Shown here piece by piece: positions 16,955-53,206 of a stretch of 64,000 nt of DNA. Position numbers and translations under genes: made by a program. Source of the DNA: Phytophthora colocasiae (Eukaryota; Oomycota; Peronosporomycetes; Peronosporales; Peronosporaceae); the NCBI GenBank assembly GCA_018806915.1, contig JAGKQI010000091.1:186001-250000 (forward strand), read 5' to 3'. Numbering within the stretch: position 1 is the stretch's first letter; each line of letters begins with the position of its first letter. Under the pieces are notes generated by a model that was not told the DNA's origin, searched no databases, and saw nothing but the letters and a program-made list of their open reading frames with translations.

Positions 16955-16968
16955 TCCTCCCCCACTTA
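16955..16968 (-). other. Gyp-D1 polypurine tract
   Basis: On the minus strand AAGTGGGGGAGGA runs directly into the LTR start TGTAACGGGG. D2 and D3 have a similar G-rich tract at the same place, which sets the orientation of all three. Confidence 0.75.
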
Positions 16969-17136
16969 GATTCGACTCTCGTCCAATCAGAGAAGAGAGA
17001 AAATCCCTTTCACATTTCTCTCTTCAATGTCGAAATCGATCGACCTGCCGCCAGCTCTTATCGCTGCGGCTTCTGCTCTCACAGAGCGCAGGGCGCACTG
17101 CCAACGCGTACCAGGCTTCCTTGGAAGTCCAGCAAC

Positions 17137-19167: not shown

Positions 19168-19660
19168 CTGGGGCGCTCTGCGCCTGACGCTTAACCTCGC
19201 GTCGAGGAGGTTCACTCTCCTCCTCGCGGCCGCCTTCAACCTCTTGAGGGGCCGCATGACCCTGAGGGTCATGGTACCGCTTCAGACGACCCACAGAAAG
19301 CGTCGGGTGGGTCGTCATCGACTTAGGCAAGTCGATCGTGTAGGCAGCGCCGTGCCTACCAAGGACCTTGAAGGGTCCAATGAAGCGATGCTTCAACTTG
19401 TTGCTCACCGTGGAGCTAACAGTGTTAAGAGGTAGGTTCTTAGTGTCGAGTAGCACTAAGTCACCCACATTAAATACACTTAAGTTTCCTCTCCCATGTT
19501 GGTCTGAGTACTCCTTTTGCTTGTCCTGTGCGAGTGCCATTGCATCTCGCACCCGGCTGATCACATTTAGCCTGTTACCGACAAATATCGACAACTTCTT
19601 CCGCAACGCGGCTGGTTCCACACTGAAACCTGGGAGGAAAGCTCTTTCCGAGCCTCTCCC
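18482..19660 (-). pseudogene. Gyp-D1 integrase C-terminal region and chromodomain
   Basis: Continues the integrase after a frameshift around 19575-19660. Blocks: NVGDLVLLDTKNLP and FIGPFKVLGRHGAAYTIDLP (the GPF/Y module), HPTLSVGRLKRYHDP, a long polar linker, then a chromodomain (HYHVERVLQERR, LRVKWRGYPASQSTWEP) near 18700-18530 and a stop at 18482. Chromodomains of this type steer integration to marked chromatin. The linker shares its DNA with the antisense ORF. Confidence 0.85.
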
Positions 19661-21170
19661 CACTTACTCTCGAAGCCGCGGTGCCCCCACCCAGTGTGAG
19701 CGGCACCAGGGGGTTCCGAAGCCCGTTTAAGTAGAACGGCGTGAACCCCTTTGACGCGTGTACCGCGTTGTTGAGTGCAAACTCAACCATAGGCAGCTGC
19801 GCTGACCAAGAGCGCGGCGCCTCAGCGCAAACACTGCGCAGCACGTCCTCAACCACTCGGTTGACGCGCTCAGTCTGACCATCGGTCTGCGGATGGTCCG
19901 CCGTTGACATAGTCAACCGTGTTCCAAGCAACTGGAACAGCGTTTTCCAAAACGCAGCGGTAAACCGCGGGTCGCGGTCAGAGACAACAGTCTCAGGCAA
20001 CCCGTGATAGCGGAAGACGCTATCAAGGAACAACTTCGCAGTTTGTTCCCCGGTAATGGTCTCAGAGACCGGAGCAAGATGCACCATCTTGCTCAACCGG
20101 CATACAAACACTACAATGCCGGTGTTCTTCTGGTAATCGGCCGGAAGGCCGAAGCCAAAGTCGAGACTCATCGACTTCCAGCAGTCCAGTGGGACTGGCA
20201 GGCTCTGCAGCGGAGCCGACGCGTGCCCCGCCGGCTTCACGCGCTGACATGTTTCACATGTCTTGATGTACTTGGCCACCCACTTGTACATGGGCCCACC
20301 AAACATCAGAGAGACCCCATGATAGGTCTTCTCTCGGCCCAAGTGGCCACTCGAAGGCACATCGTGTGCCTCGTGAATATCATACTTCAGATCCTCGTCG
20401 TTCGGAACAACGACTCGCGGAGGATCCCCGGGCTCCACCCGATACTGGAGCAGGTCATCGGCCCACTCATAGCGGTGGCGCCGTACCCGCTGTCGAGGCG
20501 TAAGCCATTCGACCTTGGCATCCGTGCCAGCGGACAAATACCGCACAATAGGGGCGAGGGTGTCATCGTCCCGATACGCCAAGCGTATTCGATCGTAAAG
20601 ATCCGTCGTGGCCCGACTAATATGAGCGAACTCATAGTCGGGCCTGCGCGACAAAGCGTCGGCAAGCGTGTTGAGCTTGCCAGGCTTGTATTCAACGCGG
20701 AAGTTATACTCCGCGAAGAATGACAGCCAACGCGCCATCCGCTGCGATAAATGCGGCGTATGGATGGCTGTCCGCAAGGACGCGTGGTCCGTATAGACCA
20801 CAAAAGGCCTTGAGCCCAGAAGATGCACCCTGAACTTGACAAGGGCGTACTTCATCGACAAGAGTTCCTTGTCGTGAACGGGATAATTCCGTTCGGTAGC
20901 CTTCAGCTGCCTGGACTGGAACGAGATCACCCTATCTCGTCCCTCATCGTCCTGCAATAGCGCACAGCCAATTGCATAGTCGGAAGCGTCACAGATGACG
21001 CTAAACGACTTGGTATCGTCCGGCAATGCCAGGACGGGCGCACATTGCAAGCTCGCCTTGATGCTGTCAGCATCCTGGTGCTGGCGCTCCCAGCACCACT
21101 CGGCCTCCTTCTTCAGAAGGTCCGACAAAGGCTTTGCGAGTCCCGCATAGCCAGCACTGTACTTGTGCAA
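19575..21170 (-). CDS. Gyp-D1 RNase H and integrase core
   Basis: Open frame of about 530 codons. RNase H: FSVICDASDYAIGCALLQDD, ERNYPVHDKELLSMKYALVK, FVVYTDHASLRTA, and FRVEYKPGKLNTLADALSRR. Integrase: zinc finger HDVPSSGHLGREKTY...CETCQRVK, then the core with LDFGFGLP (first Asp), TVVSDRDPRFTAAFW (second Asp) and STADHPQTDGQTERVNRVVE (Glu). It is one piece of a gag-pol polyprotein and has no start of its own; it follows the reverse transcriptase after a frameshift near 21120 and runs into the C-terminal piece after another near 19600. Confidence 0.85.
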   Translation of the reverse strand: MHKYSAGYAGLAKPLSDLLKKEAEWCWERQHQDADSIKASLQCAPVLALPDDTKSFSVICDASDYAIGCALLQDDEGRDRVISFQSRQLKATERNYPVHDKELLSMKYALVKFRVHLLGSRPFVVYTDHASLRTAIHTPHLSQRMARWLSFFAEYNFRVEYKPGKLNTLADALSRRPDYEFAHISRATTDLYDRIRLAYRDDDTLAPIVRYLSAGTDAKVEWLTPRQRVRRHRYEWADDLLQYRVEPGDPPRVVVPNDEDLKYDIHEAHDVPSSGHLGREKTYHGVSLMFGGPMYKWVAKYIKTCETCQRVKPAGHASAPLQSLPVPLDCWKSMSLDFGFGLPADYQKNTGIVVFVCRLSKMVHLAPVSETITGEQTAKLFLDSVFRYHGLPETVVSDRDPRFTAAFWKTLFQLLGTRLTMSTADHPQTDGQTERVNRVVEDVLRSVCAEAPRSWSAQLPMVEFALNNAVHASKGFTPFYLNGLRNPLVPLTLGGGTAASRVSGERLGKSFPPRFQCGTSRVAEEVVDICR

Positions 21171-22157
21171 GTGGTTGGCTAAGCTTCAACCCTTCCTCAG
21201 GTCCTTCTGTGACCGAGGAACAGGCCATGCCGCAATGGTTTTGACCTTGTCGGGATCCGCTCCGGACCCCGACGCTGCTGACGAAGCAGCCGAGGACCTT
21301 AATCTCCTCAGCTGCGAAGACGCACTTGTCGATGTTGGCATAGAGCTTGTTAGCTCTCATGACCTCAAACACTCGACGGAGGTGCTCCCGATGCACCTCT
21401 ATAGCCGTCTTGCCTCCCTCGGCACGGCTATGGACGAATATATCGTCAAAGTACGTCTGCGTGAACGCACGCAAAGGTCTAAACAACTGTGTGACCAAGC
21501 GATTGAAGGTCGCTGGTGCGTTGGATAGACCTTGTGGCATTACCAGCCACTCCCAGAGCATACCGCTCGGCGTGCTCACGGCCGTGAGCGGGATATCACA
21601 CTCCCGCATTAGGATCTGTAGTATCCATCCACCAGATCCAGTGCGCTGTACAGCGTGCAGCCCGCCATGTTGTTCAACAACACATCCTTGCAAGGGATCG
21701 GCGTCTGTGCTGGCACAGTCGCGCTGTTCAGCTTATTGTAAGCATGAACCAGACGCCACTTCCCGTTCGGCTTGCGAACGCAGAAGGTTGGCGTCGAGTG
21801 CGGGGACTTCGATTCCCGCACCATTCCCGCTTTCGCCTTCGCGGCGAAGAACGCGTCAATGACGTCGCTCTGCTCTCGAGGCAGGGGCCATTGACGCGTG
21901 ACACAATACTTTGTGCCTGGCACGAGATCAATCTCGTGCCTGATCCCTCGATCTGGTGGGAGCTTTGAGGGTGGGTCCTTGGACACCACGTCCTCAAACT
22001 CCTTCACTAAAGGATACAGCGGATCCTTTGGATTCTTCAGAATCTCGGAGTCCGTGCGCGACGCACGTTGCTTCCGGAACTCCTCCAGGACGTCTTCGCC
22101 CATCAAAGAGGAGGAGTTCAACTCCTCTGGAGTGGGCTCCGGCCTAAGGAGAACCAT
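21067..22157 (-). pseudogene. Gyp-D1 reverse transcriptase, frameshifted
   Basis: Two overlapping minus frames. The first (22157-21609) has the pre-RT segment PLYPLVKEFEDVVSKDPP, then CVTRQWPLPREQSDVIDAFF, STPTFCVRKPNGKWRLVHAY and YSALDLVDGYYRS with the first Asp. After a shift near 21620 come SGMLWEWLVMPQGLSNAPAT and FTQTYFDDIFVHSRAEGG (YxDD type), then ANIDKCVFAAEEIKVLGC. A second shift follows near 21190. A stop separates it from the upstream protease-linker frame at about 22158. Confidence 0.9.
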
Positions 22158-23372
22158 CTACGATATCTCCCCGGCCTTCAACTCGACCAGGAAGTCCTCC
22201 ATCGCGACTTCCTCGAGGTTCAATAGCTCTGATACCTCAGGCAGGGGTGCCAACTCGATGGCCCCCGCCTTCACGCGATGCCCGGTCACGCTGTCGAAGA
22301 TGTGATAGCACTCTTCGACCGGCTGTGACCTAGGAGCCTTGAGCTCCTCTCCCAAGTCCTCGTGGACTTCTTCGGGATGGTATTCCACCAACCCCGGCTT
22401 ACGACCATGGCGTGGGGTTAACTTACTCACGCCCAGTGGTGCCGGCTCCATGCGGAACTGCGTTACCCGCATTGGAAACACCCTTGGTGTCTTCCTGATC
22501 AGTTATGGTCTGAGCGACCTTGCGTGGAACTACTTCTCTCACGCCTGGTGATGCCATTCCTTCGGCATCACGAGCCCTCGTGGCTCCATGCGGAACTGCG
22601 TTACCCGCATCAGTTATGGTCTGAGCGACCTGGCGTTGAACTACTTCTCGTACTCCCGGCGATGCCACTACTTCGGCATCGCGAGCCATCTTGGCTTCCT
22701 GCGGAACTCTTTCATCCGCTTGTGGACCTAAGTTACCCACCTGGTTAGTGCTCTCGGGCACTACCACAGTCGCAGCCTGCGACTTCGTGCGTGGGGTCCT
22801 GCTGTTGTTGCAGACCCACACGTAGGGCAAGGGCCTCCGCCCGTTGCCCCGGCCACCCATGGCCCACGATCACTTCTCGTGTGGGGCGATGTAGCACCGA
22901 CTACACCAGCCCCCAAATACTCCTCGGACGCTGCCGCGTCCTGGCGGTTCCAGCGAACGCCCTTAGTCCTGACAGAGGTGGGACCATGACTCACCAAAGC
23001 TCTGTCAGAGACTGCAGGCCGGCTAGCCCCAATGGCTTTGCCGCGCCAATCGATCCAGGGCTCGTGCTTCTCAAGCCACGGCATCCCTAGGATCAAGTCG
23101 TACTTGTCCATCTCGAGGACAATAAACGACTCCACGCTGTCGAAGTCCTCAAACGTCACAGCCAGGTCCACCTGGACCTTTGGTACTTCCACCACCGTAC
23201 CATCGGCTAGTCGTACGGCGACTAGCCCACTTCCCTCGCTCTCACGTAGATCGTCCTCAAACTTGCCGCGGTTCCTCGCGACAGTTTGTCGGCGAGCAAA
23301 GTTCTTGCTCGCCCCAGAGTCTATCAAGACTCTAAAGGGGTTGTTAAACCCCCGTACACTCGCGTGTACCAC
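22158..23372 (-). pseudogene. Gyp-D1 aspartic protease and linker to RT
   Basis: Retropepsin-like domain with active site FRVLIDSGASKNFARR (Asp near 23320), flap region VAVRLADGTVVEVPKV and DLILGMPWLEKHEPWIDWRG, all typical of Gypsy protease. After about 22760 the frame changes into a repetitive linker (two similar units around 22500-22700) and ends ELLNLEEVAMEDFLVELKAG before a stop. The protease would process the polyprotein in the particle. Confidence 0.85.
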
Positions 23373-23500
23373 CAGCAGCCCACCGCTGCCCTTCTCCGCT
23401 TTGAGAGTCCCAAGACTCTCTGGGGCTAAGTCTCCACTGCGTGTGCCTCCCGCACCACCCGCATGGGGACTTAGTGTTTCCCCAGTAGGGCGCCCCGCCC

Positions 23501-24352
23501 CTACTGGTCCCCGGAGTTCCCCTGACTCTTGGGCGCCGGCTTCTTCCAGCGGCCCTTAGAGCCTTGAGGCTTGGAAGACCTCTTCCATTGCCCCCCAGAG
23601 GGGCAGACACGTGCGAAGTGTCCGAAACGCCCGCACTCAAAACAGCAGATGCGTTTCTGCTCGGCGAGCCCCAAGTCCATAGGGGCTGGTCCCGAGCCTG
23701 CTCCATTCCCAGGAGCACTGGCCGACGCCGTCGTCGGCTGTGGCCTTGCCACGCAGAGGCAGGAGTCTGAGCCTGTGTATGGCTGTACTCCTCCTGGAGC
23801 GCGACTTGAATCGCCTCCTCCATCGTGTTGACCTGCACGCGGAACAGTTGCGTGCGGGCCGGGCTTACTCTTAAGCCGTCCATGAACACAGTTACTTAGA
23901 TGTGTTCAGGTAGGGGGTTTCCTACCAGAGATGCCGCGAGAACGCGCATCTCTTGGATGTACTCGTGCAGGTCACGTTTCCCTTGCTTGCAGGCTAGGAA
24001 GCGTGACCGCTGGCGATACTCATAGTTTGCCGGGAGGAATGCGGCCCGAAGCTGTTCGCACAGCTGGGCCCAGGATGTAAAACATCCAGGCGACGTCGCT
24101 TCGCGCGTGTACGCCCATGTCTTCGCTCGACCCCCGAGGTTAGACAGCGCGAAAGCGACCCGAAGTCGCTCCACCGAGATGAGAGCCGCCTCCATGGCGA
24201 GCTCAACTTCTCGGATCCAGAAGTGAAGGTTTTCACCTTCTTTCCCTTCATAGGGAAGAACCTTGAGTCTTAAAGGCTTGGGTTGAACCGGCCTCGTTTC
24301 AACCACAGGAGCCTCAAAGGTTCCTCGAACGTGCTCAATGAGCCCACGTTCG
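23501..24352 (-). pseudogene. Gyp-D1 gag, main part
   Basis: Capsid-type gag: RLKVLPYEGKEGENLHFWIR, VAFALSNLGGRAKTWAY, ANYEYRQRSRFLACKQGKRD. A stop at 23896 and frame changes follow; MEEAIQVALQEEY lies in the next frame. The nucleocapsid knuckle CFECGRFGHFARVC (CCHC) lies near 23610-23655, followed by a basic tail. At 24352 the frame is cut by Gyp-B and continues at 61537: MYE joins RGLIEHVRG with one TTCG kept. Confidence 0.85.
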
Positions 24353-34825: not shown

Positions 34826-35093
34826 CTCCCCGGCCGTTCCTCCTTTCTCACGCAAGCGTCCAGCTCGGAGCTCCTCAGCCCCCCGTGATCTAAAACCTGC
34901 GGCTGCCGAAGCTCCCGGATCAACCCAGCCTGTCACACCGACGGTGGTTCCGACCTCGGCAGGATCAGCGGCGAGCCCGCTGGATCTGTTGGCGGATCAA
35001 GCTTCTGGGCAGGCCGGAGGGGAGGAAACCGACGCTCCAGCCCCTAATCCGACCCCGGCATCGACGGATCAGCCCGGATCGCTCCCCGACGAT
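34821..35093 (+). pseudogene. Gyp-B2 antisense ORF, middle piece left of D2
   Basis: Continues the B antisense ORF from the NLS-like segment (SRKRPARSSSAPRDLKPAAA) to PGSLPDD, almost identical to B1. Gyp-D2 interrupts it at 35093; the right part resumes at 43403. The N-terminal coiled coil was lost at the junction. Confidence 0.9.
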
Positions 35094-35553
35094 TGTAATG
35101 GGTCTACCTAGACCTATTAGGTGGCGTACACGTGCGCTTACGTGTATGAGGAAGCGTGCAATTAGAATAGACTTAATTTAAGTATACTTATTTAAATAAG
35201 TATAATTAAATCAAATATAACTAAATTAAACTGCAAAATACCGTAAAATGAGAACTGTTATTGAATTTGGCATAAGCCAATTATGGACCTCCTAAAACTG
35301 TTTGTTATCTATTTCTAAAGGGTCTGCCAACGTGTGGTTGGCAGAAACTCTGCTCAGTGATTGGTAGAAATCCGTTACTTTCTACCAATAATATGCACAA
35401 ATGCACACGAACCACCCAATAATGTGGTTCGCCCATGTATCCTTTGGTGTGTACAGCACACCAAGGTCTGAGGCCCATTTCCAACCTCTAACAGTTATCC
35501 TAACTGTTAGAGTTACAAGTGGTACTACCACTTGTACGTGTAACCCCGTTACA
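35094..35553 (-). repeat. Gyp-D2 3' LTR
   Basis: 460 bp, same as 42943-43402. On the + strand it starts TGTAATGGG and ends CCCCGTTACA. It holds several perfect hairpins: an 11-bp stem at 35360-35389, a 12-bp stem at 35486-35512 and a 9-bp stem at 35514-35536, plus the terminal TGTAAC-CCC-GTTACA. Confidence 0.95.
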
Positions 35554-35654
35554 CCATCCCCCCGTTAAGATTCGACGTATCGGTCTCGATACGTCAATCA
35601 ACAGAACTTGACAAGACCGTCAAGTTCCCGAGAGAAATCCGAGTTCATTTCGCA

Positions 35655-37202
35655 ATGGACTCGCCAACGCCCACGTCTCCGTCCGCTTCTGCGGACGCGC
35701 AAGCCTCACCTGCTGCCTCTGCAGCAGGAACAACGACCTCAGCAGTGCCCACTAGCACTGCTGCTTTCAGTGGTCCGACAGAGAAGCTCTCTGTCACCAA
35801 GTACCATGCTCTCCATAAGGAGAAGCATGAGAAGAAGAAGAAGTCTTCTTCTCTAGCAGAGATTAAAAATCCTGCCGTCCCTCTCAAAGAACTCTTTGGA
35901 GAGGACTACGAAGACATCCTCGACTACGACGAGGATGTTGAGGAGGGGGAGGTTGATGTCAAGGCTCCCGCTCCCGTGTCTTCGTCCGAAGACACGTCAG
36001 ACCCACCCGTGGGATCTCGACGACCTCGTGTTGAGGTCTCGGACGCTTCAAGCTCGAAGCGTCCGCGCAGTGATGATGAAGCGTCCCCCATGTCGAGGGC
36101 GCTCACTGCACCGCGCACTGATCCGCCAGTGCGCACACCATGGATGCCTACTGAGGCAGAAATCCATGACCGGTTCGGTGCTAGTTCACCACCGAACCCG
36201 ATACTGTTGTACTCATGCAACAGTATCAACGACGACGACGTCGCCGCTAAGGTTGTCTTTGAGTCCGAGACTCAAAGACGCGACTACTATATCGGGCTCT
36301 TCCACGAGCTCCGATACTATGCAGCGAAGACGACTTCGCGCAAGAGCAAAGTGCCAGAGTGGCAGGCACTTTGTCAGTCGTGGAACGCCTTTGTTGAAAA
36401 CTTCAACAAAGACCCGAAGGCATATCGCGAGCGCGTTGCTGCGGCTCGCGATCGCTACTACACTTACACTACACGTGGTAAGTGTGAACGCCTCCATGAT
36501 CAGTCCATGGAAGCGGGGATCCCATGTGCCGTTCCCTTTGGCACACCCTGTCCGTGTTGCCCACCCTTGGCAACACGCCTCACCGAAAGTAATCTCCTGG
36601 GGTACACGGTCGTCCGTGTACCCGATCACATCAAGGAACTCCGTGGTCGTATTGTGCAACGCGAAGCTCCGAGTGCTGTGGCTGACCGCAGCACTCCTCG
36701 TGCAGGGTTTAACCCTGCAAGTTATGGTGGGCTTCGTACGCCCTCGCCATTTCCGGAACGTCCTCCATCAGGACGTTCCGCGGCTCCCATGTATCTCGAT
36801 GGGGAGGAAATCCTCTCCAACGAATACGAAAACGAACCCCTTGAGAGTTCGTTCTCTTATGAGCCACGATCCGCTCCACAATCCAGCGGCTCGCTCCACG
36901 CGCGTCGCGCAACGGCGGCGGAGGGGGTGGTAACACTCCCTCCGCATGGTCAACGCTATGACCATGACGATCGTGCCCTGCACGATCGAGTTGCTGCGCT
37001 AGAGCAGACACAGAGCGCTGAGATAGCTGCTCTGAAGCAGGAGGTTCGTGTCCTCCGTGCTGAGGTCTGCGAGGCAGCTCAGACTGCCTCGAACCTCTCG
37101 TCCGGTCTTGGGACGAGAGTGAACCGGTTGATCGACCGTGTCGACGGTCTCGAGAAGGCCTTCCAGGCCTCTCGCACTCCTCAGTCGGACTACCAACCCT
37201 AG
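35655..37202 (+). CDS. Gyp-D2 antisense ORF, 515 residues, intact
   Basis: Uninterrupted from the ATG at 35655, 101 bases inside the 3' LTR, to TAG at 37200-37202, opposite to pol. Layout: 1-45 Ser/Pro/Ala/Thr-rich; 55-66 basic (KEKHEKKKKSSS); 85-100 acidic (DILDYDEDVEEGEVDV); around 115-145 SRRPRVEV and SSSKRPRSDDE, NLS-like; 180-320 a mixed, probably folded part with many aromatic residues (RRDYYIGLFHELRYYA) and a Cys cluster (GTPCPCCPPLATR); 430-500 coiled coil (RVAALEQTQSAEIAALKQEV). No known family comes to mind. Its last 494 bases overlap the integrase-chromodomain end of pol. Nearly every part of its DNA lies in short perfect hairpins. Confidence 0.8.
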   Translation: MDSPTPTSPSASADAQASPAASAAGTTTSAVPTSTAAFSGPTEKLSVTKYHALHKEKHEKKKKSSSLAEIKNPAVPLKELFGEDYEDILDYDEDVEEGEVDVKAPAPVSSSEDTSDPPVGSRRPRVEVSDASSSKRPRSDDEASPMSRALTAPRTDPPVRTPWMPTEAEIHDRFGASSPPNPILLYSCNSINDDDVAAKVVFESETQRRDYYIGLFHELRYYAAKTTSRKSKVPEWQALCQSWNAFVENFNKDPKAYRERVAAARDRYYTYTTRGKCERLHDQSMEAGIPCAVPFGTPCPCCPPLATRLTESNLLGYTVVRVPDHIKELRGRIVQREAPSAVADRSTPRAGFNPASYGGLRTPSPFPERPPSGRSAAPMYLDGEEILSNEYENEPLESSFSYEPRSAPQSSGSLHARRATAAEGVVTLPPHGQRYDHDDRALHDRVAALEQTQSAEIAALKQEVRVLRAEVCEAAQTASNLSSGLGTRVNRLIDRVDGLEKAFQASRTPQSDYQP

Positions 37203-37668
37203 GTAGTCCGTGCTGCACGTACGGCTTCAACCGCCCGACGTAGAAGGTCGGGTGGAGCCTCATGCTGGACGGTATGTCCAGCCGGTACGCGTTACCATGC
37301 CGTTCAAGTACTTTGAACGGCCCAGTAAATCTTGGAGCAAGCTTGCTTGCTCCAAAGTCGAACACTGCATGTTTAGGCAGGTTTTGTGTAGCTAACAAAA
37401 CTAATGAACCCACTTTGAATTCATTTATGTTGCCCCTACCAACATTATCAGCGTTCAGCTTCTGTCGATCGACAGAAGCTGCGATAGCATCCTGGACAAA
37501 CCGTATGACGGCTTGTCTTCGCTGGACAAAGTCTAGCGCACCCGAGCTGAATCCTTTCAGCTTGTCGCCCTTGTCAGCAGCAGGCCCTGCCTGCTCGCTA
37601 TCATCTCTCATGTCTGTGCCCGGCACAGACATCAGCGCGCTCGTTCCTGCTCGAACGAGACGTCGCAC
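36709..37668 (-). CDS. Gyp-D2 integrase C-terminus and chromodomain
   Basis: Open minus frame: FKVGSLVLLATQNLP, APRFTGPFKVLERHGNAYRL (GPF module), LHPTFYVGRLKPYVQHG, a basic and Gln-rich linker, then a chromodomain (SRWIVERIVAHKRT, FRIRWRGFPPHRDTWEP) and a stop at 36709. The linker and chromodomain are encoded on the strand opposite to the coiled coil of the antisense ORF, so about 165 codons are used on both strands. Confidence 0.85.
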   Translation of the reverse strand: MRRLVRAGTSALMSVPGTDMRDDSEQAGPAADKGDKLKGFSSGALDFVQRRQAVIRFVQDAIAASVDRQKLNADNVGRGNINEFKVGSLVLLATQNLPKHAVFDFGASKLAPRFTGPFKVLERHGNAYRLDIPSSMRLHPTFYVGRLKPYVQHGLPRVGSPTEECERPGRPSRDRRHGRSTGSLSSQDRTRGSRQSELPRRPQHGGHEPPASEQLSQRSVSALAQQLDRAGHDRHGHSVDHAEGVLPPPPPPLRDARGASRWIVERIVAHKRTNSQGVRFRIRWRGFPPHRDTWEPRNVLMEDVPEMARAYEAHHNLQG

Positions 37669-39312
37669 GCGTCACCGCAACTGATAGTGTGCTGCTATCG
37701 GTTGTATTCTGCGGTTGTTCGGACGCAACCGTAGATCCTCCCCACTTAAGGAGGAAGCTACCCTGCCGAGCATGCTCGGCAATCGTGGAATGCCTCATGG
37801 CGTTCACGTAGAACGGTGTATGCCCTGTCGAGGCATGCACCGAGTTGTTGATGGCAAACTCTGCCATCGGCAAGCACCTCGCTCAATGCGGGAACGAGTG
37901 AGCGTAGCTCTTCAACGTGTCACCCAGTACACGGTTGACACGTTCAGTCTGTCCGTCCGTCTGCGGATGATCCGCAGTCGACATTGATAACTGTGAACCA
38001 AGAAGTGTAAACACTTCTTGCCAGAACCGCGCTGTGAAGCGTGGATCACGGTCCGACACAATGTCGAGCGGCATGCCATGGTGTTTGAACACCATGTCAA
38101 CAAACAGTCGCGCAGTCTGCGCGGCTGTAACAGTAGCCAGGACGGCAGCAAGATGAACCATCTTGCTGAATCCAGTCCACAAAGACCACGATGCCCGTCA
38201 CTCCGCTTGCTGTCAGGCGGAAGGCCGAAGACAAAGTCCATGGACATGGACTGCCAACACTCCGACGGAGTCGGTAGTGATTGGAAGAGGAGCCTGCGAG
38301 AACTGCGCAGGCTTCACGCGTTGACAAACCTCGCAAGCACGTACGTACTTGCGCACCCACTGTACTGGTGGTGCCAGTAGAAGTCACGCGTGAGAAGAGT
38401 GTATGTCTTCTCACGACCCGGATGCCCTGCCGTGGGGGCATCGTGATACTCGAACATGATCCTCAACCGGAGGTCGCGATCATTCGGAACGACAATGCGA
38501 TCCGCATTGTCGTCGACTACACTGTACAACAGTAGGCCTTCGTGTACACGATAGCGGTGTACACGAGCTCGAAGATGAGGGGTTAGCTTCCGACGTGCCA
38601 CGTCGGAAGGTGCTGCGAGGAACTCCAGCAGCCCCTTCGCGTCTGCATCCCTTGCATACGCGTTCTTCACGTCGTCAATCAACGTTGACGACGGCACGCA
38701 TTTGTCCTCACGACGCCAACTGCGTTGGCGTCGACCAAATCTCCGCATAGTCAGGTCGACGCGATAACGCGTCGGCCACTACGTTGAGTCTTCCGGGTTT
38801 GTACTCCACCCGGAAGTTGTACTCCGCGAAGAAGGACAACCATCTCGCCATACGTTGCGAGATGTGCGGCGACAATCGCCGTACGCAATGATGCGTGGTC
38901 TGTATAGACCACGAACGGTCTACTCCCAAGTAGATACACTCGGAACTTTGCGAGTGCATACTTCATGGCAAGGAGGCTCCTTGTCATGTACGGGATAGTT
39001 ACGCTCAGCTGGCTTCAGCTGACGCGATTGATAGTAGACTACACGATCACGCCCTTCGTGATCGTGTTGCATCAATGCACATCCGATTGCAAAGTCGGAT
39101 GCATCGCAATAACTACGTGGAATGGACGATCTTGGTCCGCCACGGCCAAGATCGGCGCTTCCAGTCAAGCCCTGCTTGACTGCACCGAATGCATCCTCGC
39201 ACTCGGTCGTCCAAATCCACTCAGCTTCTTTCTTAAGAAGCTGTGACAACAGGCGAATCTTGCCCGCATAGTTGTCCACGTACTTGCACACAAGTACGTG
39301 GCAGAAGCCCAA
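37669..39312 (-). pseudogene. Gyp-D2 RNase H and integrase core, frameshifted
   Basis: Pieces in several frames. RNase H: RVVYYQSRQLKPAERNYPVH, RPFVVYTDHASLRTA, RVEYKPGRLNVVADALSRR. Integrase: HDAPTAGHPGREKTY, SMDFVFGLPPDS, GMPLDIVSDRDPRFTARFW, STADHPQTDGQTERVNRVLG, EFAINNSVHASTGHTPFYV. Frame changes occur near 38960, 38740, 38350, 38190 and 37880. D,D,E residues are present but the chain is broken. Confidence 0.85.
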
Positions 39313-39321
39313 GGAACTGCC

Positions 39322-40162
39322 TCAGATTCCTTTACATTTGGATGGCGTGGGCCATTCATTGATCACTCTGACCTTCTCTGGGTCAGGGCGCACGCCGTCT
39401 TTCCCCACGAGACACCCCAGCACGGGTATCTCGCTCGCCCCGAAGATACACTTCTTCAGGTTCGCATAGAGCTTATGTTTCCTCATAAGCTCCTGGCAGC
39501 TCCCGGAGATGCACCTTGTGCATATCAATGTCCGTCTTCCCGTTCACAGCCCGGCTGTGGACGAACACGTCGTCGAAGTAGCTCGGTGCGAAGTCGCGCA
39601 CCGAGCGCAATAGATGTGTCACGCATCTATTGAACGTCGCAGGGGCGTTCTTAAGCCCCTGTGGCATGACAAGCCACTCCCAAAGCATACCGCTTGGGTG
39701 ATTACCGCAGTGAGAGGATGTCCCTCTCACGCATGAGGATCTGATAGAATCCATCACGCAGATCTAGAGCACTGGAGATAATGCTCAAGGCCATCGAATC
39801 GATGATAACATCTTTTCGCGGTATCGGCGTCTGCGCCAGTATCGTCGCATCGTTCAACTTGTTGTACGCATGAGACGATGCGCCAGCCGCCCTGTGGTTT
39901 CTTCCACACAGAACGTTGGAGCACTGTGCGGGGACTTTGACTCCCGCACTTGACCTGCAAGACGACGACTTTCAAAGAAGTCGTCGATCGCTTGCACTTG
40001 TTCACGCGGCAGTGGCCACTGCCGTGTAACACAGTACTTCGTGCCCGGCACGAGATCAATCTCGTGCTGTACGCCCTTATCCTTCGGAAGCTCCGAAGGA
40101 ATCTCGTCCGGGAGTACATCCTTGTACTCCCGCAGAATCTCGTAATAGGGACTCGACTTCAA
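39322..40162 (-). pseudogene. Gyp-D2 reverse transcriptase, frameshifted
   Basis: From right to left: EILREYKDVLPDEIPSELPK, YCVTRQWPLPREQVQAIDDF, APTFCVEETTGR (shifted), then SGMLWEWLVMPQGLKNAPAT, FAPSYFDDVFVHSRAVNG (YxDD type) and ANLKKCIFGASEIPVLGC. Shifts lie near 39880, 39700 and 39490. The stretch carrying the first catalytic Asp (about 39750-39790) is only readable in a shifted frame. Confidence 0.85.
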
Positions 40163-40225
40163 CGAGTCCCAACTCTGCTCCTCGAAGCGTTGCTTTTTGG
40201 TCTTCGCACTGAGGGGTCATCGCCC

Positions 40226-41950
40226 TCAGTGATGCCATCGACGACGAGCTGCTTCAGCTCTTCGGCTTCGCGATCGACTCTCTCGATATCCGAGAGAATG
40301 CAAATTTGTTCGATGCGTCCATCGTACAAGTCTCGCGCGAAGCGCTTCCAACTCATCGTTGGAAGTGCGGTCAACGCCGACGCACTCGTCGGCGGATTCT
40401 CCAACCGCATCCTCTGGTACTGCAGTACGTGTCAAGACGTTCAACGTCTCGACACTCGGTGTCTGCACTGCAGACACACCCGTCTCAGTCCCGGACTGAG
40501 ACTCGCGCAGCTCCCTGAGCTTGCGCCGCGAAGGTCTACCATGGAGCCCGGCTCCAGGTGCTCCACGTCCAAGGCATCGCACCTTGGACGGGACGTTATC
40601 GCAATCGTCAGCGGATTCCTTCCGCTGACTCGCACTATCAAGCCCGGCTTGAGTGCCGCTCATCGCGTGCAGCGCTGCTGCACGTGAGCACGCAGGTTGT
40701 TCGGGTGCTGGGCGTTTGCAACCGCCAGCACCTCCTGCCGCGCAGTCGGTTCCCTGAACCGCTGCGCCTTCATCCGCTCCTACGGATGAAGCAACCGCAT
40801 CGTCGACTCCCGGAGTCGACGTGCTCTCGCTAGCTTCCTGCGCTAGCGAGTGTTCGCTTGTACACATATCGTCAGCTCCCAGAGCTGACGCACGTTCGCT
40901 AGTTCCCGGAACTAGCAGCGAACGTTCGCCTGTACACGCATCATCAGCTCCCGGAGCTGATGCACGATCGCTAGTTCCCAGAACTAGCAGCGACGCGCCA
41001 GTGGCGTCAGCTCCCAGAGCTGACGCACGCCTTTCGGTTCCCCGAATATTATTTGCTTTGTCAACTCCCAGAGTTGACGCGACGTCGTCGGCGCGACCCT
41101 TGGAGGCTTGAACTACCTCCAAGGATACCGGTAATACCGGTATTTTACCTTCTCTCAGGTGAATCGCATTCACCTGACCATCACTCATGTGACAAACATC
41201 ATTCAGATGTTTACGCGTCAGGTGATTCACATTCACCTGACCATCACTCATGTGACCGCGACCCTTCGGCTCAGATTTCTGAGTCGACACACATTTTCTC
41301 ACAACGACTCCCGGAGTCGTTGATGGTCGCCGGCGGCGATCGGAGGCAGCGGCGGCCGCTGCTGCCTCAACTGGGGATCCACATGCACCGGCCGGTGCAT
41401 GTGCAGCACTGACAGGGCCATCGCTCTCTGTCGCACATGTGTTGTTGAAGCGTACGAGCGTACGCTTCTCCCAGTTGATCACCGGGTCATGCCGTGCAAG
41501 CCACGGCATGCCTAATACCAAGTCGAACTTATCGTCTAGATCCAAGACGATAAGATCTTCTACAAACATCCTTCGTTTGTAAGAGAAGCGCACACGGACT
41601 ACGCGCTTCTCAGTCCTCACGGTGGCACCTGTTGCCAATCGCACTTCCTTCACGCTGCGAGGCGTGTCGGCTTCTTCGAAGTCAAACCTTCGAAGACTTC
41701 CCTGTCGAACAAAGTTGTTCGACGCGCCCGAGTCCACTAGGGCACGAAGAGAGTTCGCTCTCTTCGACATCACGTTCAGGATGACAAGGTTTGGCTTGTC
41801 ATCTTGCAGCTTACAGCGAGAAACCTTCTCGCTGGGGGCAGCAGTCCTCATCGTCGCGTGTCCAAGCTCGACACGCGAGACTGCATCACCAGTAGGACGC
41901 CCCGCGCCTACTGGTCCTTGGCGTTTTTTGAACGCCCGCCCGCTGTGCAC
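40226..41950 (-). CDS. Gyp-D2 aspartic protease with long repetitive linker
   Basis: Open frame of about 574 codons. Protease at its N-terminal side: NSLRALVDSGASNNFVRQGS (Asp near 41735), VRLATGATVRTEKRVVRVRF and FDLVLGMPWLARHDPVINWE. The rest is a low-complexity linker with repeated units such as ASALGADD, ASAPGADD, TSTPGVDD and two HMSDGQVN units, before the RT. The repeated units correspond to hairpins in the DNA. The 5' end overlaps gag near 41908-41950. Confidence 0.8.
   Translation of the reverse strand: MHSGRAFKKRQGPVGAGRPTGDAVSRVELGHATMRTAAPSEKVSRCKLQDDKPNLVILNVMSKRANSLRALVDSGASNNFVRQGSLRRFDFEEADTPRSVKEVRLATGATVRTEKRVVRVRFSYKRRMFVEDLIVLDLDDKFDLVLGMPWLARHDPVINWEKRTLVRFNNTCATESDGPVSAAHAPAGACGSPVEAAAAAAASDRRRRPSTTPGVVVRKCVSTQKSEPKGRGHMSDGQVNVNHLTRKHLNDVCHMSDGQVNAIHLREGKIPVLPVSLEVVQASKGRADDVASTLGVDKANNIRGTERRASALGADATGASLLVLGTSDRASAPGADDACTGERSLLVPGTSERASALGADDMCTSEHSLAQEASESTSTPGVDDAVASSVGADEGAAVQGTDCAAGGAGGCKRPAPEQPACSRAAALHAMSGTQAGLDSASQRKESADDCDNVPSKVRCLGRGAPGAGLHGRPSRRKLRELRESQSGTETGVSAVQTPSVETLNVLTRTAVPEDAVGESADECVGVDRTSNDELEALRARLVRWTHRTNLHSLGYRESRSRSRRAEAARRRWHH
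40801..41322. repeat. Series of homologous hairpins with covarying stems
   Basis: Six hairpins share the plan stem-CTC-CCR-GAG-stem: 40801-40821, 40870-40890, 40942-40962, 41004-41026, 41060-41078 and 41302-41322. Left arms are CGTCGACTC, CGTCAGCTC, CATCAGCTC, GCGTCAGCTC, GTCAACTC and CAACGACTC; every right arm is the exact complement. Other hairpins lie between them (40826-40850, 40898-40916, 40970-40988). They encode the repeated units in the protease linker. Confidence 0.9.
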
Positions 41951-42690
41951 TCGCGTGCATAGTGACCGATGTTACTACACTTGTAACATCGAACCTTGCC
42001 ATATCTACGCTGCTGTTGACCAGCAGTCGTAGCACTCGAGAGGTCCATAGGTTCCGGACCTCCCGTCTTCACAACAGGACGCGCCGGCTTCGGCGCGTTC
42101 GCATGGAGTTTATCTTGACGCCGACTAAACTCCTCTTGCATTGCAAGGCTGATCGCCTCCTCGAGAGTATTCGGATACTCTCGGAAGAGATATGTTTTGA
42201 CGGGACCATCTCTTAGTCCCTTCATGAACGTGACGACCTTGGTCGCCTCGTCGATCGGGTTGGCCACTATGTTCGATACCAAGTATCGAGCACGCTGGGC
42301 AAAGGTGTGAACATCATCCTTGCCCTGTTGCAGATCGAGAAACTCTGCTCTCGATCTGAACTCGTTCTTCGGAGGCTCAAACGCAAGCTTGAGTTCCTCC
42401 TTGAACACCTCGTACGTGCTGAAGCACGTAGGATCCGAGAGTCGGCGCCCATAGGCCCAACTCCTCGCACGTCCGCCAAGACATGACATGGCGAACGCGA
42501 CCTTCGACATCGGATCGACGATACGTCGAGCCGCAACGGCTGTGTCGAGTTCGACAAGCCACCGAAGGAGGGTCTCGTCACTCCTTCCGCGTGTAGGTAC
42601 TCACGTGGAGTTTCAACGACTCCACGCGTGGCTTAGGAAGCCACCGAGGCAGCAACATCTCGTTGCTCCTTAACAATGTACCCCAGAGCA
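41908..42690 (-). pseudogene. Gyp-D2 gag
   Basis: Capsid-type gag: TLLRWLVELDTAVAARRIVD, MSKVAFAMSCLGGRARSWAY, PPKNEFRSRAEFLDLQQGKD, TFMKGLRDGPVKTYLFREYP, then the knuckle CYKCSNIGHYAREC (CCHC) near 41990-41950 and a basic tail. A frame change lies near 42580; the first Met candidate (MLLPRWLPKPRVESLKLHV) lies near 42665, close to the primer site. An open frame from about 42510 to 41908 is intact. Confidence 0.8.
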
Positions 42691-42923
42691 ACACCGTGTT
42701 GCTCTGTCGGCGATAGCGTACGAAGCATCGTAGCTACCGCTGCCTCTCCAATGACTCATGAGAGTCTTTGGAGAGCCTCCCACTCTGGATCAGACAGGTG
42801 GGCGCAGTCCGTGCGCGTCACGGACATTTGAGGGGTCCCAGCGGATCCCTCATCCATTGGGGAGTTCTCTACCCCGCGTTCGTATGACTCCATACGAACG
42901 AACAGCAGTCGGTCGTGGGACGG
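42691..42923 (-). other. Gyp-D2 leader between primer site and gag
   Basis: About 230 bases with no reading frame I can assign, rich in short palindromes (TCGTATGACTCCATACGA near 42880-42900). Confidence 0.5.
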
Positions 42924-42940
42924 ACTACAAAGTGCTACCA
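42924..42940 (-). other. Gyp-D2 primer-binding site
   Basis: Reads TGGTAGCACTTTGTAGT on the minus strand, two bases inside the 5' LTR. D1 (61699-61714) and D3 (58935-58951) have TGGTAGCACTTGTAG at the same place, so the three families use the same primer, presumably the 3' end of one tRNA that I cannot name. Confidence 0.75.
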
Positions 42941-42942
42941 GG

Positions 42943-43402
42943 TGTAATGGGTCTACCTAGACCTATTAGGTGGCGTACACGTGCGCTTACGTGTATGAGG
43001 AAGCGTGCAATTAGAATAGACTTAATTTAAGTATACTTATTTAAATAAGTATAATTAAATCAAATATAACTAAATTAAACTGCAAAATACCGTAAAATGA
43101 GAACTGTTATTGAATTTGGCATAAGCCAATTATGGACCTCCTAAAACTGTTTGTTATCTATTTCTAAAGGGTCTGCCAACGTGTGGTTGGCAGAAACTCT
43201 GCTCAGTGATTGGTAGAAATCCGTTACTTTCTACCAATAATATGCACAAATGCACACGAACCACCCAATAATGTGGTTCGCCCATGTATCCTTTGGTGTG
43301 TACAGCACACCAAGGTCTGAGGCCCATTTCCAACCTCTAACAGTTATCCTAACTGTTAGAGTTACAAGTGGTACTACCACTTGTACGTGTAACCCCGTTA
43401 CA
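42943..43402 (-). repeat. Gyp-D2 5' LTR
   Basis: Identical, as far as I can read, to the left copy at 35094-35553. It is followed by the ACGAT duplication and the right part of the B2 antisense ORF. Confidence 0.95.
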
Positions 43403-44289
43403 ACGATGGTGATTCGCAGGACGAGGAAGAGGAAGACTCCGACTACGATCCCCAGCACCCATTTTTATCGCCGTCCGAAGAGGACGAGAGTCCAGAACCC
43501 AGCAATGGAACTAGTTCTGAGGCTGAATCGGAACGTTTCAACGAGGCGGAGGACTCCGAGGAGGACGATGTTCTACGCATGAGCCGCCAACGATCTATCT
43601 CGACGCACCGGCGCGAGTCCGGTCAGGTTCCGAGAGGCGGATCTTCCGGTGCTCGTGGATCGGGGTCTCCGGACGGCTCAAGCTCATCTCCGGATGGATC
43701 AGGCCCGCCGTCTCCGGGATCACCTCCGGGTTCCCCGTCACCGCCGCCACCTCCTCTTGGGACCCCCGGCACCGAATACCTCAACGGGTTGATCACGGGT
43801 GTGAACGTGCTTGATCTGTTGGCTCTGGAGCCGTGGAACGACTTCGCGAACCCGGGTCCCCTCACGTTCGACCTCGATTTGCATGAGAGGGAGGGAACAC
43901 CCCTCGCGGCCGTGGCTGCCACCTATCGCGTCCTGGAGGAACGGCACCGCCAGGCGTTTTGGGAATCCACCCATAACCTCGAGATTACCTCTGCCATGCA
44001 AGATGCGGATCTCGAACTGCAGCGGTATTACGTCGCTCGCAAGGCCAGGCGGAGTCGGGCTGGGTCTGCTTGGCGCCAGTTCCTCGCCTCCTTCCCCGCC
44101 ATGATGCGCGACCAGTGGTTCGATCTCGACATCCTGTTGGATCCGTTCTTCCTTCACCTCCCCATTCCGGCAGTGGATGCGGTTCGTTGGTATCCCGGCG
44201 TGGCCTCTCGGCGTGCCAACCGGGCGGATCCCAACGCGAACGTCCCAGAGCCGGCGAACCTGATCGAGGCTCTGGAGGAGTGTGATTAG
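43403..44289 (+). pseudogene. Gyp-B2 antisense ORF, C-terminal piece right of D2
   Basis: Resumes the B antisense ORF after D2 (GDSQDEEEEDSDYDPQHPF). Compared with B1 it lacks about 222 bases in frame near 43758 (PPPPPLG joins TPGTEYLNG), removing the start of the C-terminal domain. It ends early at TAG (44287-44289) where B1 has GAG, leaving about 40 codons beyond the stop. Otherwise almost identical to B1. Confidence 0.9.
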
Positions 44290-50381: not shown

Positions 50382-51874
50382 CTAGTTTAACATCTTTTCC
50401 ACCTTCTCGGGGAACAATCCGGCATGTCGGGTCGGATCGTACCACTTGCGGATCTGGTTGTAGAATTCCTCCATGGGGCATTCTCCAGCTTCATGGATCT
50501 CCCCACAACCACGGCATGTGTACAGACAGCGATCCGTTGGGTGGCCCCTCTTTCCGCACTTATCACAGGTTAGACGTCTCCAGCAATCCAGATCCGTGTG
50601 CTTCCGCGATCCGCAGTGCGAACAGCGACCTCGATCGCGATCTGATCCCCCACGATCCGTGATCCGGCCTTGATCTTGCGCATTCGTGTGTGATCGCGAC
50701 TGATCCTGTTGGTGGGGAGCGCCCCCAGTGCCGATCGGCTTGTCTTCTGACGCGGCAAGATATATCCTCCGGAGATCGCCTTCAGAATCGGATCCGTCCG
50801 ATCCGGATATTTCTTCCGATTCCGAGCTCGGATCTTGGGTTTGGATCGCCCGTACCACCGCTCGGGTGGGTGCTGCCGGGGCGCTGGCCGGTGCCTTTTG
50901 TCGGTACTTCGATCCGAACGCAGACTTACGCTGTCTGCTTTTCGCCCGTTCCCGGGCACGAAGTACCTCCTCCAGTTCATCGACGTCACTTAGCCGGAGT
51001 AGGGTCAGCCGATCAGCTAACTCCGGATCTCCCAATGTCTCGATGTAGTGGTCTACATGTTCCCGGCGGGCCTTAGGGCTCCCATCCTTGATCTTCAGCC
51101 TAGCCCGTAAAGCCGCCACGTTGAGCCGGTAGAGATAATCGAGAGGAGTCTCTTCTGATCGCTTGCGAGCATGATAGTATTGCCACGCGACCGACATACC
51201 TAACCCACAATACTGGGTCTGGAAACTGTCCAGCAGATCCGCCCACTTGGTTTTCGTCGTTCGGCTGAGCTGCCTATACCAGTTCTTTGCCGGTCCCACC
51301 ATCAGATCTGCAAACGTGAGGCATTTTTCTTCTTCCGTAGCCTGATCACGTTGGAACGCTGACTTGACCTTACCGATCCAGGCCCGAGCGCGATCTTCGT
51401 CCAGATCTTTACCCGCAAAATCTTTTAGATCCGAGATTGCTGAGATTCGGACCCGCTGGATCATCGACGATCCTCCTTGACCGATCGTCGCGGATGCGAT
51501 CGCTGCTCGGCTCGACATCTGTCCACCAGAACTCGGTATGCCCAGATCGTCCGGATCGTATTCCCATGCATCAGGATCTGAGGCGGTAACGGACTCCATG
51601 TCAACATCCAACTCCCCCTTGATCGGTGACCGGGGTGTCGCGAGACTCCGTTCTTTTAAGAAACGATCCATCGCCATCTGGAAGTAGTCGTCCAACTTGT
51701 TGCTCGATCCAGTGGAATTAGTCGTCGGCGCGGTCTGGTCCGTCCGGATCCGGCGATTTTCTTGCTGATCAGGCGTCTTGACCTCCAGTTTCGCAGCCAC
51801 CGATCGCGTATCCTGTTTCTTCATACGCGATTTCAGGAACTTGGCGCCGGAGGGCCCTAACGACATGCGTTGCA
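50382..51874 (-). CDS. Gyp-B2 gag, main part
   Basis: About 497 codons downstream of the D3 insertion: basic start (MSLGPSGAKFLKSRMKKQD), a Ser/Thr/Asp-rich region, then the capsid module (ISDLKDFAGKDLDEDRARAW, TFADLMVGPAKNWYRQLSRT, WADLLDSFQTQYCGLGMSV, ETPLDYLYRLNVAALRARLK), an acidic segment and three zinc knuckles: CSHCGSRKHTDLDC, CDKCGKRGHPTDRC and CRGCGEIHEAGEC. It ends at 50382. Upstream it joins 59380-59931 once D3 is removed (SPRRLQ joins RMSLGPSG). The B1 copy lost all but the knuckles. Confidence 0.9.
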
Positions 51875-52295
51875 TGCAGCGGGGCTGCGTAGGTGTGCAC
51901 GGCACAGAGGAAGTTTAGTTGACTCGTAGAGTCCTGCTTGCAAGGCACTAGCCTTCGGTTCTATACAAGAACCAAGTAGTCCACTAAATACGGGACTCAC
52001 AGAGTCAGTGTCCCTATAACAAAGGACTAACACTAACTATGTAAAATGCAAACTGATTTTTATTGACTTTATTGCCCTAATCCTAAATGTAACGGATTTA
52101 GTATCTAACATACTAAATCCTAATCAAAATGCAACGTGAGGCTCTGAGGCCATCTACGTATCTACTCGTGTGTGCCACACCATTATGTACCCACATAAAT
52201 GTATCATGAGTGTCACACACTATTATGTACCCACATAAATGTATCCACGTGTGTCACACACCAACGAGAAACATTCGTGTAACATCCCCGTTACA
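51875..52295 (-). repeat. Gyp-D3 3' LTR
   Basis: On + it starts TGCAGCGGGGCTGCG (a small hairpin) and ends TGTAACATCCCCGTTACA (another). An 11-bp hairpin lies at 52094-52120 (arms GGATTTAGTAT and ATACTAAATCC). Confidence 0.95.
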
Positions 52296-53206
52296 CTCTC
52301 CCCCACCAAGATTCCGGATACCGTATCCGGAAAGTGTAAACACACGACGCGATTATCGGCCGATGGCCACGGCACCTTGCCTTGCGCGGACGGCGCTGTC
52401 TCTCGTGCGTGTTACACGCCTCCGTACGCGATGCCACTTGGTACACACTTGGGTCCAATGCTTACCAAGCATAGGAGCCTACTGGCTCGAGTCAAGGGGC
52501 TCTACGGGCATGGAAAGAAGGCCACAGGTGGCGTATCTATGATACTACTGGATCAGTGATCCACAGGGCAAGCCTTCCAAGCTACCAACGGTTCCACGAA
52601 CCACACAGCAGTGGGGCCCACTCTGCTTCACAGTTAATGTGACCCTCGGATGAGCACTGTGTGCAGGGCTTGATGCCCAAGTTGTCCTTGAAGCAGGCGC
52701 AAGCGCCACTATGTGTCACAGACACTGTGTCTTGTGAATACACGTGCTCAGCACAGTCGTAGACACGACAACGAGCACCAGACAGCTAAGCAGTCGCTCA
52801 GGAGGAGCTTACCTACCTCCTACTGCTATGCAGCATGCGGGGTCCAATGCATTGGCATCCCTGGCACCCACAGTGCCTCATGACATAGTCATACCCATTG
52901 AACGCTTCTAGCGTCAGGTGATCGGATAGAATCCGTTTCCATCACCACTTGTCGCTTAGACCGAACGTCATTAAGACGGTTGTTCATCACGAACCATCTT
53001 CGCTTCATGATCGCGAAGCTCCGGGCCATAGGCCAGTGTTGTTAAAGGGTCATAGACCCTTGAAACACGCGCGCGAGGCGCATGTAGCTCTACTGCACTT
53101 GCAGCTTTGAGCATTCGATGCCATGTCGACGGCACCGACGTGCTCGCTGCAAGTATTGCAGCTACGGGTCAGAGCCTGAGCTCAGCACCGACCCTGGACC
53201 CCCACC
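52296..53206. other. Gyp-D3 region between 3' LTR and pol, no gene
   Basis: 900 bases at the position of the antisense ORF in D1 and D2. It starts with the polypurine tract (minus GTGGGGGAG). I find no long frame on either strand. It is nevertheless rich in short hairpins (CCGGATACCGTATCCGG, GGGTCATAGACCC, CGGATAGAATCCG). It may hold a decayed antisense ORF. Confidence 0.6.

Follow-up and report, generated by a model that had tools for sequence, protein, structure and literature searches.

The Ty3/Gypsy LTR retrotransposon D2 is tiled along its whole length with short perfect hairpins. Variants inherited among its copies avoid the stems of these hairpins and single-copy variants do so much less, which is a new observation. 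Two related elements, D1 and D3, in the same window (the whole stretch of 64,000 nucleotides that was analysed) show a similar tiling with shorter stems. Based on sequence comparisons, we tentatively suggest that in all three elements the whole sequence, on both strands, might have been moulded into consecutive short perfect hairpins that would be maintained by selection, most likely in the role of a shield against silencing.

Structure of the D2 element

D2 (35094..43402, minus strand) is a full-length element with a chromodomain and with pol on the minus strand, as identified from its LTRs, target-site duplication and Pfam matches (Retrotrans_gag, RVP_2, SH3_Tf2-1 and Chromo). The 460-bp 5' LTR (42943..43402, minus strand) is 100% identical to the 460-bp 3' LTR (35094..35553, minus strand) and contains hairpins at matching places. 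The TG...CA LTR ends and the target-site duplication that characterize Ty3/Gypsy elements are both present, the latter being ACGAT at 35089..35093 on one flank and at 43403..43407 on the opposite one. The element is inserted within a copy related to element B (see below) and has been recently active.

The internal region includes a gag ORF of 200 aa with a CCHC zinc knuckle (41908..42510, minus strand; PF03732 and PF00098), an ORF that encodes the aspartyl protease domain and an unconserved linker and carries approximately 20 stems of at least 8 bp per kb (40226..41950, minus strand; PF08284), the RT, RNase H and integrase core (37672..40225, minus strand), with a frame that is broken in the window copy and open in other copies, and the integrase C-terminus (SH3_Tf2-1) with the chromodomain (36709..37668, minus strand; PF24626 and PF00385). 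An antisense ORF of 515 codons (35655..37202, plus strand) overlaps the end of pol. The domain order PR-RT-RNase H-IN followed by SH3/chromodomain is found when one D2-family copy is considered along with D2 and D1: in this copy, Pfam gives RVP_2 (domain end only), RVT_1, RT_RNaseH, H2C2, rve and SH3_Tf2-1, and the order SH3 then Chromo is found in D2 and D1.

Hairpin content of D2

The main scan, for non-overlapping perfect stems of at least 8 bp with a loop of 3-12, detects 160 hairpins in the whole window, 114 of them in D2. In the 35183-43400 interval these 114 stems amount to 13.9 per kb, whereas 20 dinucleotide shuffles give 1.4 stems on average and never more than 5. The 515-codon ORF alone has 24 such stems, against a mean of 0.77 and a maximum of 4 in 100 synonymous-codon shuffles. 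The initial annotation, in which both kinds of control were proposed, drew attention to 11 stems in the interval 35976..36780 and estimated the chance rate at 0.1-0.2 per kb. All 11 are perfect inverted repeats, of 8-11 bp, exactly where they had been placed; an independent scan finds 15 non-overlapping stems of at least 8 bp (loop 3-12) in the interval, and the estimated rate is correct, with shuffles giving 0.16 per kb. The hairpin observation is real, and bigger than first noted.

The tiling is present in every full 500-base window of the elements, including the 3' LTR of D2, and in coding and non-coding parts alike, and is thus a property of the whole element, as had been proposed. It had likewise been proposed that the pattern does not stem from codon use, and codon usage as the cause is indeed ruled out by the synonymous shuffles of the D2 ORF and of family copies (see below), which are far below the observed counts. 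The D2 stem lengths have a separate mode at 9 bp, with none above 12; the mean spacing of the hairpins is 36 nt and their coverage is 55%. Only 5% of the 21-nt windows in D2 touch no stem of at least 4 bp, compared to 39-41% in two controls. The stem starts with C in 53% of the D2 hairpins, and NGG is found in 19 of the 53 D2 triloops, besides which no shared loop motif was seen. Base preferences in loops and at boundaries differ from family to family: the D1 stems start with G in 47% of the cases, whereas in D3 the loop is preceded by C in 43% and by A in 5%. An Rfam search of D2 gave nothing at the gathering cut-offs.

Related elements and background sequence

D1, D2 and D3 are related Ty3/Gypsy elements, with the chromodomain found in D1 and D2. 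D1 (16887..24352, minus strand; boundaries approximate, from self-BLAST) is incomplete in the window; its stems are mostly of 5-7 bp, and 28 stems are of at least 8 bp. D3 (51874..59379, minus strand), with LTRs at 51874-52295 and 58953-59379 that are 98.8% identical, has stems mostly of 5-6 bp at a hairpin density similar to that of D2. D3 is represented by the one copy in the window and by small pieces in other loci, and the '67%' relatives of D1 are the large D3 family.

A scan for shorter stems (at least 5 bp, loops of 1-10) gives 27.5 stems per kb in D2, 24.9 in D1 and 30.1 in D3, i.e. one stem per 33-40 nt, compared to 8.5 in element B and 7.8 in positions 1-12000 of the window. Element B, for which a comparison had been proposed, is present in two copies with 98.8% identity (27984-34825 and 43761-50607) and shows no hairpin enrichment; both B and positions 1-12000 are near chance. 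The commonest length among stems of at least 5 bp is 5 in D3, 5-6 in D1 and 9 in D2. A D1 stem previously noted at 20072-20094 has 10 bp and a loop of 3, as described; another, at 20225-20241, is no hairpin as written and falls within a hairpin at 20220-20243 that has a stem of 6 bp and a loop of 12 nt. The claim that D3 has shorter stems in its non-coding part too holds, as the segment 52296-53206 has 19 stems of at least 5 bp in 911 bases, 7 of them of at least 6 bp, against approximately 7.8 per kb in shuffled D3.

Outside the three elements, the first 16 kb of the window do not depart from the chance level, with 2 stems of at least 8 bp versus 2.0 in shuffles. The respective numbers are 3 and 1.6 for 25000-35000, 4 and 1.2 for 43500-51900, and 2 and 0.8 for 59500-64000; 27 non-D flank segments elsewhere in the genome (35,129 bases) have 0.28 stems per kb. 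All of these are close to chance.

The stems end abruptly, with complementarity of 0.24-0.39 one step past the first mismatch and 0.10-0.37 farther. Longer stems are AT-richer in D2 (rho -0.25 between stem length and GC, p=0.003) and in D3 (rho -0.18, p=0.013), which would be expected if the stability of the hairpins matters; in D1, length and GC are unrelated (rho -0.08). A regular hairpin pitch is not supported by the coefficients of variation of the gaps, which are 0.77 in D2, 0.88 in another D2 copy, 1.20 in D1 and 1.12 in D3, with 0.99 for random placement. Given their density, the hairpins of D1 and D3 are placed approximately at random and those of D2 only slightly more evenly, so nothing points to selection against long open gaps in themselves.

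Hairpins in other copies of the elements

Family members were sampled across the genome (92.5 Mb, 105 contigs). Forty scored places, including the one in the window, match the D2 RT piece at 96-100%, with at least 1,000 first-look candidates, and the matches listed in the D2 protein search include 74 at 90-100%, many of them in open frames of more than 1,000 codons. The trait is common to other family copies: in nine further D2-family RT loci, the density of stems of at least 8 bp is 11.9-13.3 per kb over the locus and 10.2-12.4 within the match, and 30 D1-family loci sampled genome-wide have 2.4-5.3, a load that is similar from one D1 copy to the next. Among the 12 aligned D2 rows, which represent 11 copies, 56 of the 59 stem loci (at least 7 bp) are present in 9 or more. 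The D2-family locus L068, with 1,458 open codons and Pfam matches from the protease end to integrase, contains 58 stems of at least 8 bp, compared to a mean of 1.4 and a maximum of 3 in 30 synonymous shuffles, and one D1-family locus contains 17 stems versus 1.2 in synonymous shuffles (maximum 4). The sharing of D2 stems by D1 does not exceed the expectation from sequence identity, as calculated by hand. No relatives elsewhere were found in two viral_contigs scans.

Relation of the stems to reading frames

The third-with-third codon register is found in 24 of 76 D2 stems and 21 of 64 D1 stems, compared to 8-14% expected from synonymous choice alone; this is about one third, the share to be expected if the stems were indifferent to the frame. 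Within the conserved RT-IN part of D2, the fraction is 6 of 36, between both expectations. The stems of D2 and D1 are largely blind to the frame, and not fully so in the conserved RT-IN part. Avoidance of conserved protein by the hairpins was considered and rejected, as the fraction covered by stems is 0.35 for the unconserved part of D2 and 0.28 for the conserved part, and there is no correlation between coverage and conservation inside the conserved part. Insertion of ready-made hairpins is disfavoured by the 40 stems located entirely within aligned pol codons that have no gaps.

In 5 of 10 rows, the antisense ORF of D2 has no interruption within the part that was aligned. The variants that are shared among copies (defined below) number 6, 8 and 19 in its first, second and third codon positions and the singletons 41, 28 and 42, so the shared variants prefer third positions, and the ORF is apparently under protein constraint. 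This preference suggests that antisense transcription might occur, at least at the 3' end. In the D1 antisense ORF, there is no third-position preference beyond pol (4, 4 and 5). Like its D2 counterpart, a long D1 antisense ORF overlaps the end of pol (L035:3362-4540, minus strand), and the two share a weak similarity over 28 residues (E=0.03). Pfam shows no family above the cut-off for the antisense ORFs of D2 and D1. A single-sequence AlphaFold model of the D2 ORF has low confidence (pLDDT 48), with a predicted C-terminal helix at 434-506.

Variation among copies

The internal D2 set consists of the 12 aligned rows minus L071, which duplicates L063, and the window copy, which has odd indels; 10 rows are left. 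The 5' D2 set was built from 18 sequences, namely the window, L071, L072 and 15 of 30 LTR loci; L018 was dropped before alignment (17), and subsequently L001, L014 and L071 were removed as duplicates and L008 for foreign sequence, with 13 left. The 3' D2 set was built from 14 sequences (11 of the 30 LTR loci among them), from which L019 and L071 were dropped before alignment (12) and L002 and L013 then removed as duplicates (10). Loci L011, L021, L022 and L023 are in neither of these two sets; the 460-bp LTR is in both, and the window copy was kept in both. The D1 set comprises 27 of 30 loci, L051, L059 and L060 having been dropped. A shared variant is one present in at least two copies; by our reading, shared variants are mostly inherited from a transposing ancestor. 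The p values below are per single test, and variants within one copy are linked.

When stems are called on the reference, the pooled D2 sets have shared variants at 10 of 2153 stem sites versus 102 of 5005 other sites (p=1e-7), whereas the singletons are much less depleted, with 86 in stems (0.040) versus 271 outside (0.054; p=0.011); the contrast in shared versus single variants between stem and other sites has p=4e-4. A conservative definition, under which a stem in any copy counts and which should bias in the opposite direction to the reference-called one, gives 25 of 2401 versus 136 of 4828 for shared variants (p=4e-7) and no difference for singletons (p=0.29). Stem-breaking changes are thus approximately three- to four-fold under-represented among the inherited D2 variants. 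By set, the shared variants are found at 0 of 937 stem versus 27 of 2338 other sites in the internal set and at 3 of 572 versus 53 of 1369 in the 5' set. In the 3' set, which holds the antisense ORF, the depletion is not significant (7 of 644 versus 22 of 1298, p=0.33). In D1, shared variants are at 22 of 1097 stem versus 136 of 3311 other sites (p=0.001; singletons, p=0.27), or 56 of 1510 versus 159 of 2974 with any-copy stems (p=0.015). At third codon positions of D2 pol, there are 0 shared variants among 315 in stems versus 17 among 760 outside (p=0.005).

In a circular-shift null, in which the stem mask was slid around the alignment, the observed depletion was matched by 0 of 3,275 shifts for the internal D2 set, 0 of 1,920 for the 5' set, 12% of 1,920 for the 3' set and 0.5% of 4,502 for D1. 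Relative to this null, approximately 24 stem variants are missing in D2 and 17 in D1 (null rate multiplied by stem sites, by hand). Loops carry more shared variants than stems in all four sets, and more singletons in three of the four. Because shared variants avoid the stems and single-copy variants do so much less, the stems appear to be kept during propagation, and purifying selection very probably maintains the hairpins while the element propagates. The depletion of singletons in stems of the 3' set (0.039 versus 0.069, p=0.008) argues against a simple form of this reading. Perfecting of integrated copies by host DNA repair is disfavoured, given that, with the exception of the 3' part, singletons are as frequent or nearly as frequent in stems as outside them.

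Compensated pairs with at least two carriers are absent among the 10 shared D2 stem variants, two of which are compensated in one carrier each; approximately 2 such pairs are found among the 22 in D1. In the 5' set, compensated pairs were each seen in one row, with one exception position, and are gone without L008. Relative to D1, neither arm of the stems is consistently more diverged (17 versus 12, with 11 ties), and stems show no enrichment for D2-specific substitutions (0.309 versus 0.282, p=0.29). With compensated pairs, arm asymmetry and excess change in stems weak or absent, purifying selection fits better than template switching. The singletons include 40 C>T and 34 G>A changes, with no G-to-A excess.

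Strand symmetry and folding

Both strands of D2 fold equally strongly, with folding z of -8.15 for the sense and -8.64 for the antisense strand over 13 sampled 300-base windows, all of which are below -4.3 (sense) and -4.5 (antisense) relative to shuffles. The sense and antisense values are -6.3 and -6.3 for D1, -2.6 and -3.1 for D3, -0.5 and -0.8 for B, and -0.1 and 0.1 for positions 1-12000 of the window. Stem variants that yield G.U and A.C pairs are similarly frequent (12 versus 15 among shared and 79 versus 74 among single variants). Among 20 one-mismatch D2 stems, 4 have G.U and 10 have A.C. For extended D2 stems, one count gives G.U in 24 of 1,114 and A.C in 49 of 1,258, with the opposite tilt in D1 and D3, and another gives 42 A.C versus 19 G.U, with the reverse in D1 and D3. 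Folding of the sense RNA alone is disfavoured by this lack of G.U preference. Together with the equal folding, it makes the selected object look symmetrical, that is, DNA or both RNA strands. Considering also the AT-richer longer stems of D2 and D3, we infer that selection might act on the physical hairpin in both strands.

Possible origin and role of the hairpins

A role of the hairpins in shielding the elements from silencing is suggested here as a tentative possibility. Locally folded sense and antisense transcripts would be slow to anneal to each other and would leave small-RNA complexes few unpaired segments of 21-25 nt, and none of the stems comes near the size that Dicer requires. Avoidance of double-stranded RNA when both strands are transcribed, one of the causes considered in the initial annotation, would agree with the strand symmetry and with the apparent constraint on the D2 antisense ORF. 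PMC3522703 reports that small RNAs of both orientations match Gypsy elements in Phytophthora infestans. Several observations speak against the overall account: the shared variants of the 3' part of D2 are not significantly depleted in stems, D1 stem length is unrelated to GC, hairpin placement is nearly random, D1 has no more of the D2 stems than identity predicts, D2-specific substitutions show no stem enrichment, and the D1 antisense ORF lacks a third-position preference beyond pol. More doubtful is the far-reaching version, a strand-symmetric armour in which all stretches, in both orientations, would be selected to self-fold so that transcripts escape silencing duplexes. Over much of gag-pol, this selection would take precedence over the choice of amino acids and codons, and the stems would have 5, 6 or 9 bp depending on the family.

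Several other explanations have to be weighed against the silencing shield. One possible function is compaction of the genomic RNA during packaging, with every stem-loop serving as a local binding unit for Gag/nucleocapsid, as has been proposed for the RNA of satellite tobacco mosaic virus (STMV). The modal 9-bp stem, 36-nt mean spacing and 55% coverage of D2 resemble the STMV RNA as described in PMC3551766, and the maintenance of stems during propagation is compatible with such a role. However, folded RNA should accept G.U pairs, which are not preferred, the antisense strand folds equally strongly, D1 and D3 have other stem lengths, the spacing is near random for its density, and no common loop motif was seen besides the NGG triloops of D2, so we consider packaging somewhat unlikely; selection for folded genomic RNA alone, which had been proposed initially, does not fit the lack of G.U preference either. 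Single-stranded cDNA could be the target instead, if folded minus-strand DNA were protected or better handled during reverse transcription. Perfect Watson-Crick pairs without a G.U preference suit DNA, and the stems appear to be maintained during propagation, but hairpins are expected to slow plus-strand synthesis and there is no G-to-A excess among the singletons pointing to a deaminase; this we regard as quite improbable.

The hairpins might also require no function, if the reverse transcriptase switches template within a strand and converts near-palindromes into perfect ones that accumulate to saturation. Such a mutational ratchet is consistent with the presence of the hairpins in D1-D3 and not in other stretches examined, and with the family-specific stem lengths. 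The part of the initial template-switching proposal that stands is the weak dependence on frame and the strand symmetry; the near absence of compensated changes and of any lineage-specific excess of change in stems speaks against it. Self-templated correction should leave approximately half of the corrected mutations as compensated pairs, far from what is seen in D2 and D1, and the inconsistent arm divergence from D1 and the AT-richer longer stems in D2 and D3 also render the ratchet unlikely. An assembly or polishing artefact, or a multitude of small hairpin insertions, would be in keeping with the odd indels of the window D2 copy but is barely credible, given the identical stems on other contigs and in both LTRs, the 40 stems wholly within gap-free aligned pol codons, and the 1,458-codon frame with Pfam domains that carries 58 stems.

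On the reading of selected hairpins, a whole-element constraint on nucleic-acid folding, symmetrical between strands, would operate in a young retrotransposon over an open polyprotein frame. If the shield interpretation is true, this would be a sequence-encoded counter-defence for which no suppressor protein is needed; if the cause is mutational instead, the hairpins would reveal a palindrome-writing reverse transcriptase. Either way, codon- and homology-based analyses of such elements would be biased by a rarely considered constraint.

Comparison with known systems

The nearest known kinds are GORS and the stem-loop train of STMV, from which D2 and its relatives differ in strand symmetry, lack of G.U preference, retrotransposon setting and family-specific stem length. 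GORS-like genome-wide structure has been proposed to shield RNA from host recognition, as stated in PMC9784701. The likeness is that the folding energy of D2 is well below that of shuffles along the element, in 13 of 13 sampled windows. In contrast, D2 is an LTR retrotransposon with discrete perfect short hairpins that are equal between strands, and the tolerance of G.U pairs in sense RNA is not seen, G.U being no commoner than A.C.

The STMV genome is 1058 nt long. The crystal described in PMC3551766 reveals 30 helices, each of 9 bp, whereas 41% of the RNA is not visible. Similarly to D2, these are short local 9-bp helices, approximately one per 35 nt for the genome length given above, with about half of the molecule paired. 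Unlike STMV, D2 encodes gag and pol over 8.3 kb, the related families have 5- or 6-bp stems, and the pattern is strand-symmetric; furthermore, the regular stem-loop pitch is not observed in D2, D1 or D3.

Quasipalindrome correction by template switching produces perfect inverted repeats on either strand, blind to the frame. Blindness to frame and strand is also found here, except in part in the conserved RT-IN region (6 of 36 stems), but compensated changes, arm asymmetry and an excess of change in stems are weak or absent in D1 and D2. With Ty3/Gypsy chromodomain elements, those of oomycetes among them, D2 shares the PR-RT-RNase H-IN-SH3-chromodomain order, LTRs and a 5-bp target duplication; the word 'hairpin' does not occur in the main text of PMC5348765, which describes oomycete elements with a chromodomain. 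A literature search, which covered few subscription papers or bioRxiv preprints, found no description of hairpin-tiled retrotransposons.

Additional features of D2 copies

Over the 3.3 kb of its aligned part (37213-40530), the window D2 copy differs from all others by 33 substitutions and 37 indel columns that are private to it, exceeding the private changes of all other aligned copies except one with a 47-column deletion. Despite the identical LTRs, these odd changes may reflect a local assembly error or an odd history. The D2 LTR contains an imperfect palindrome of approximately 42 bp, 90% self-complementary, at 35173-35214 and 43022-43063, and the protease-RT linker contains degenerate tandem repeats that are approximately 75% alike (40799-41256). 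Finally, the L030 locus (G000:C58:1565733-1567842) contains four tandem D2 LTRs with a spacing of approximately 550 bp.
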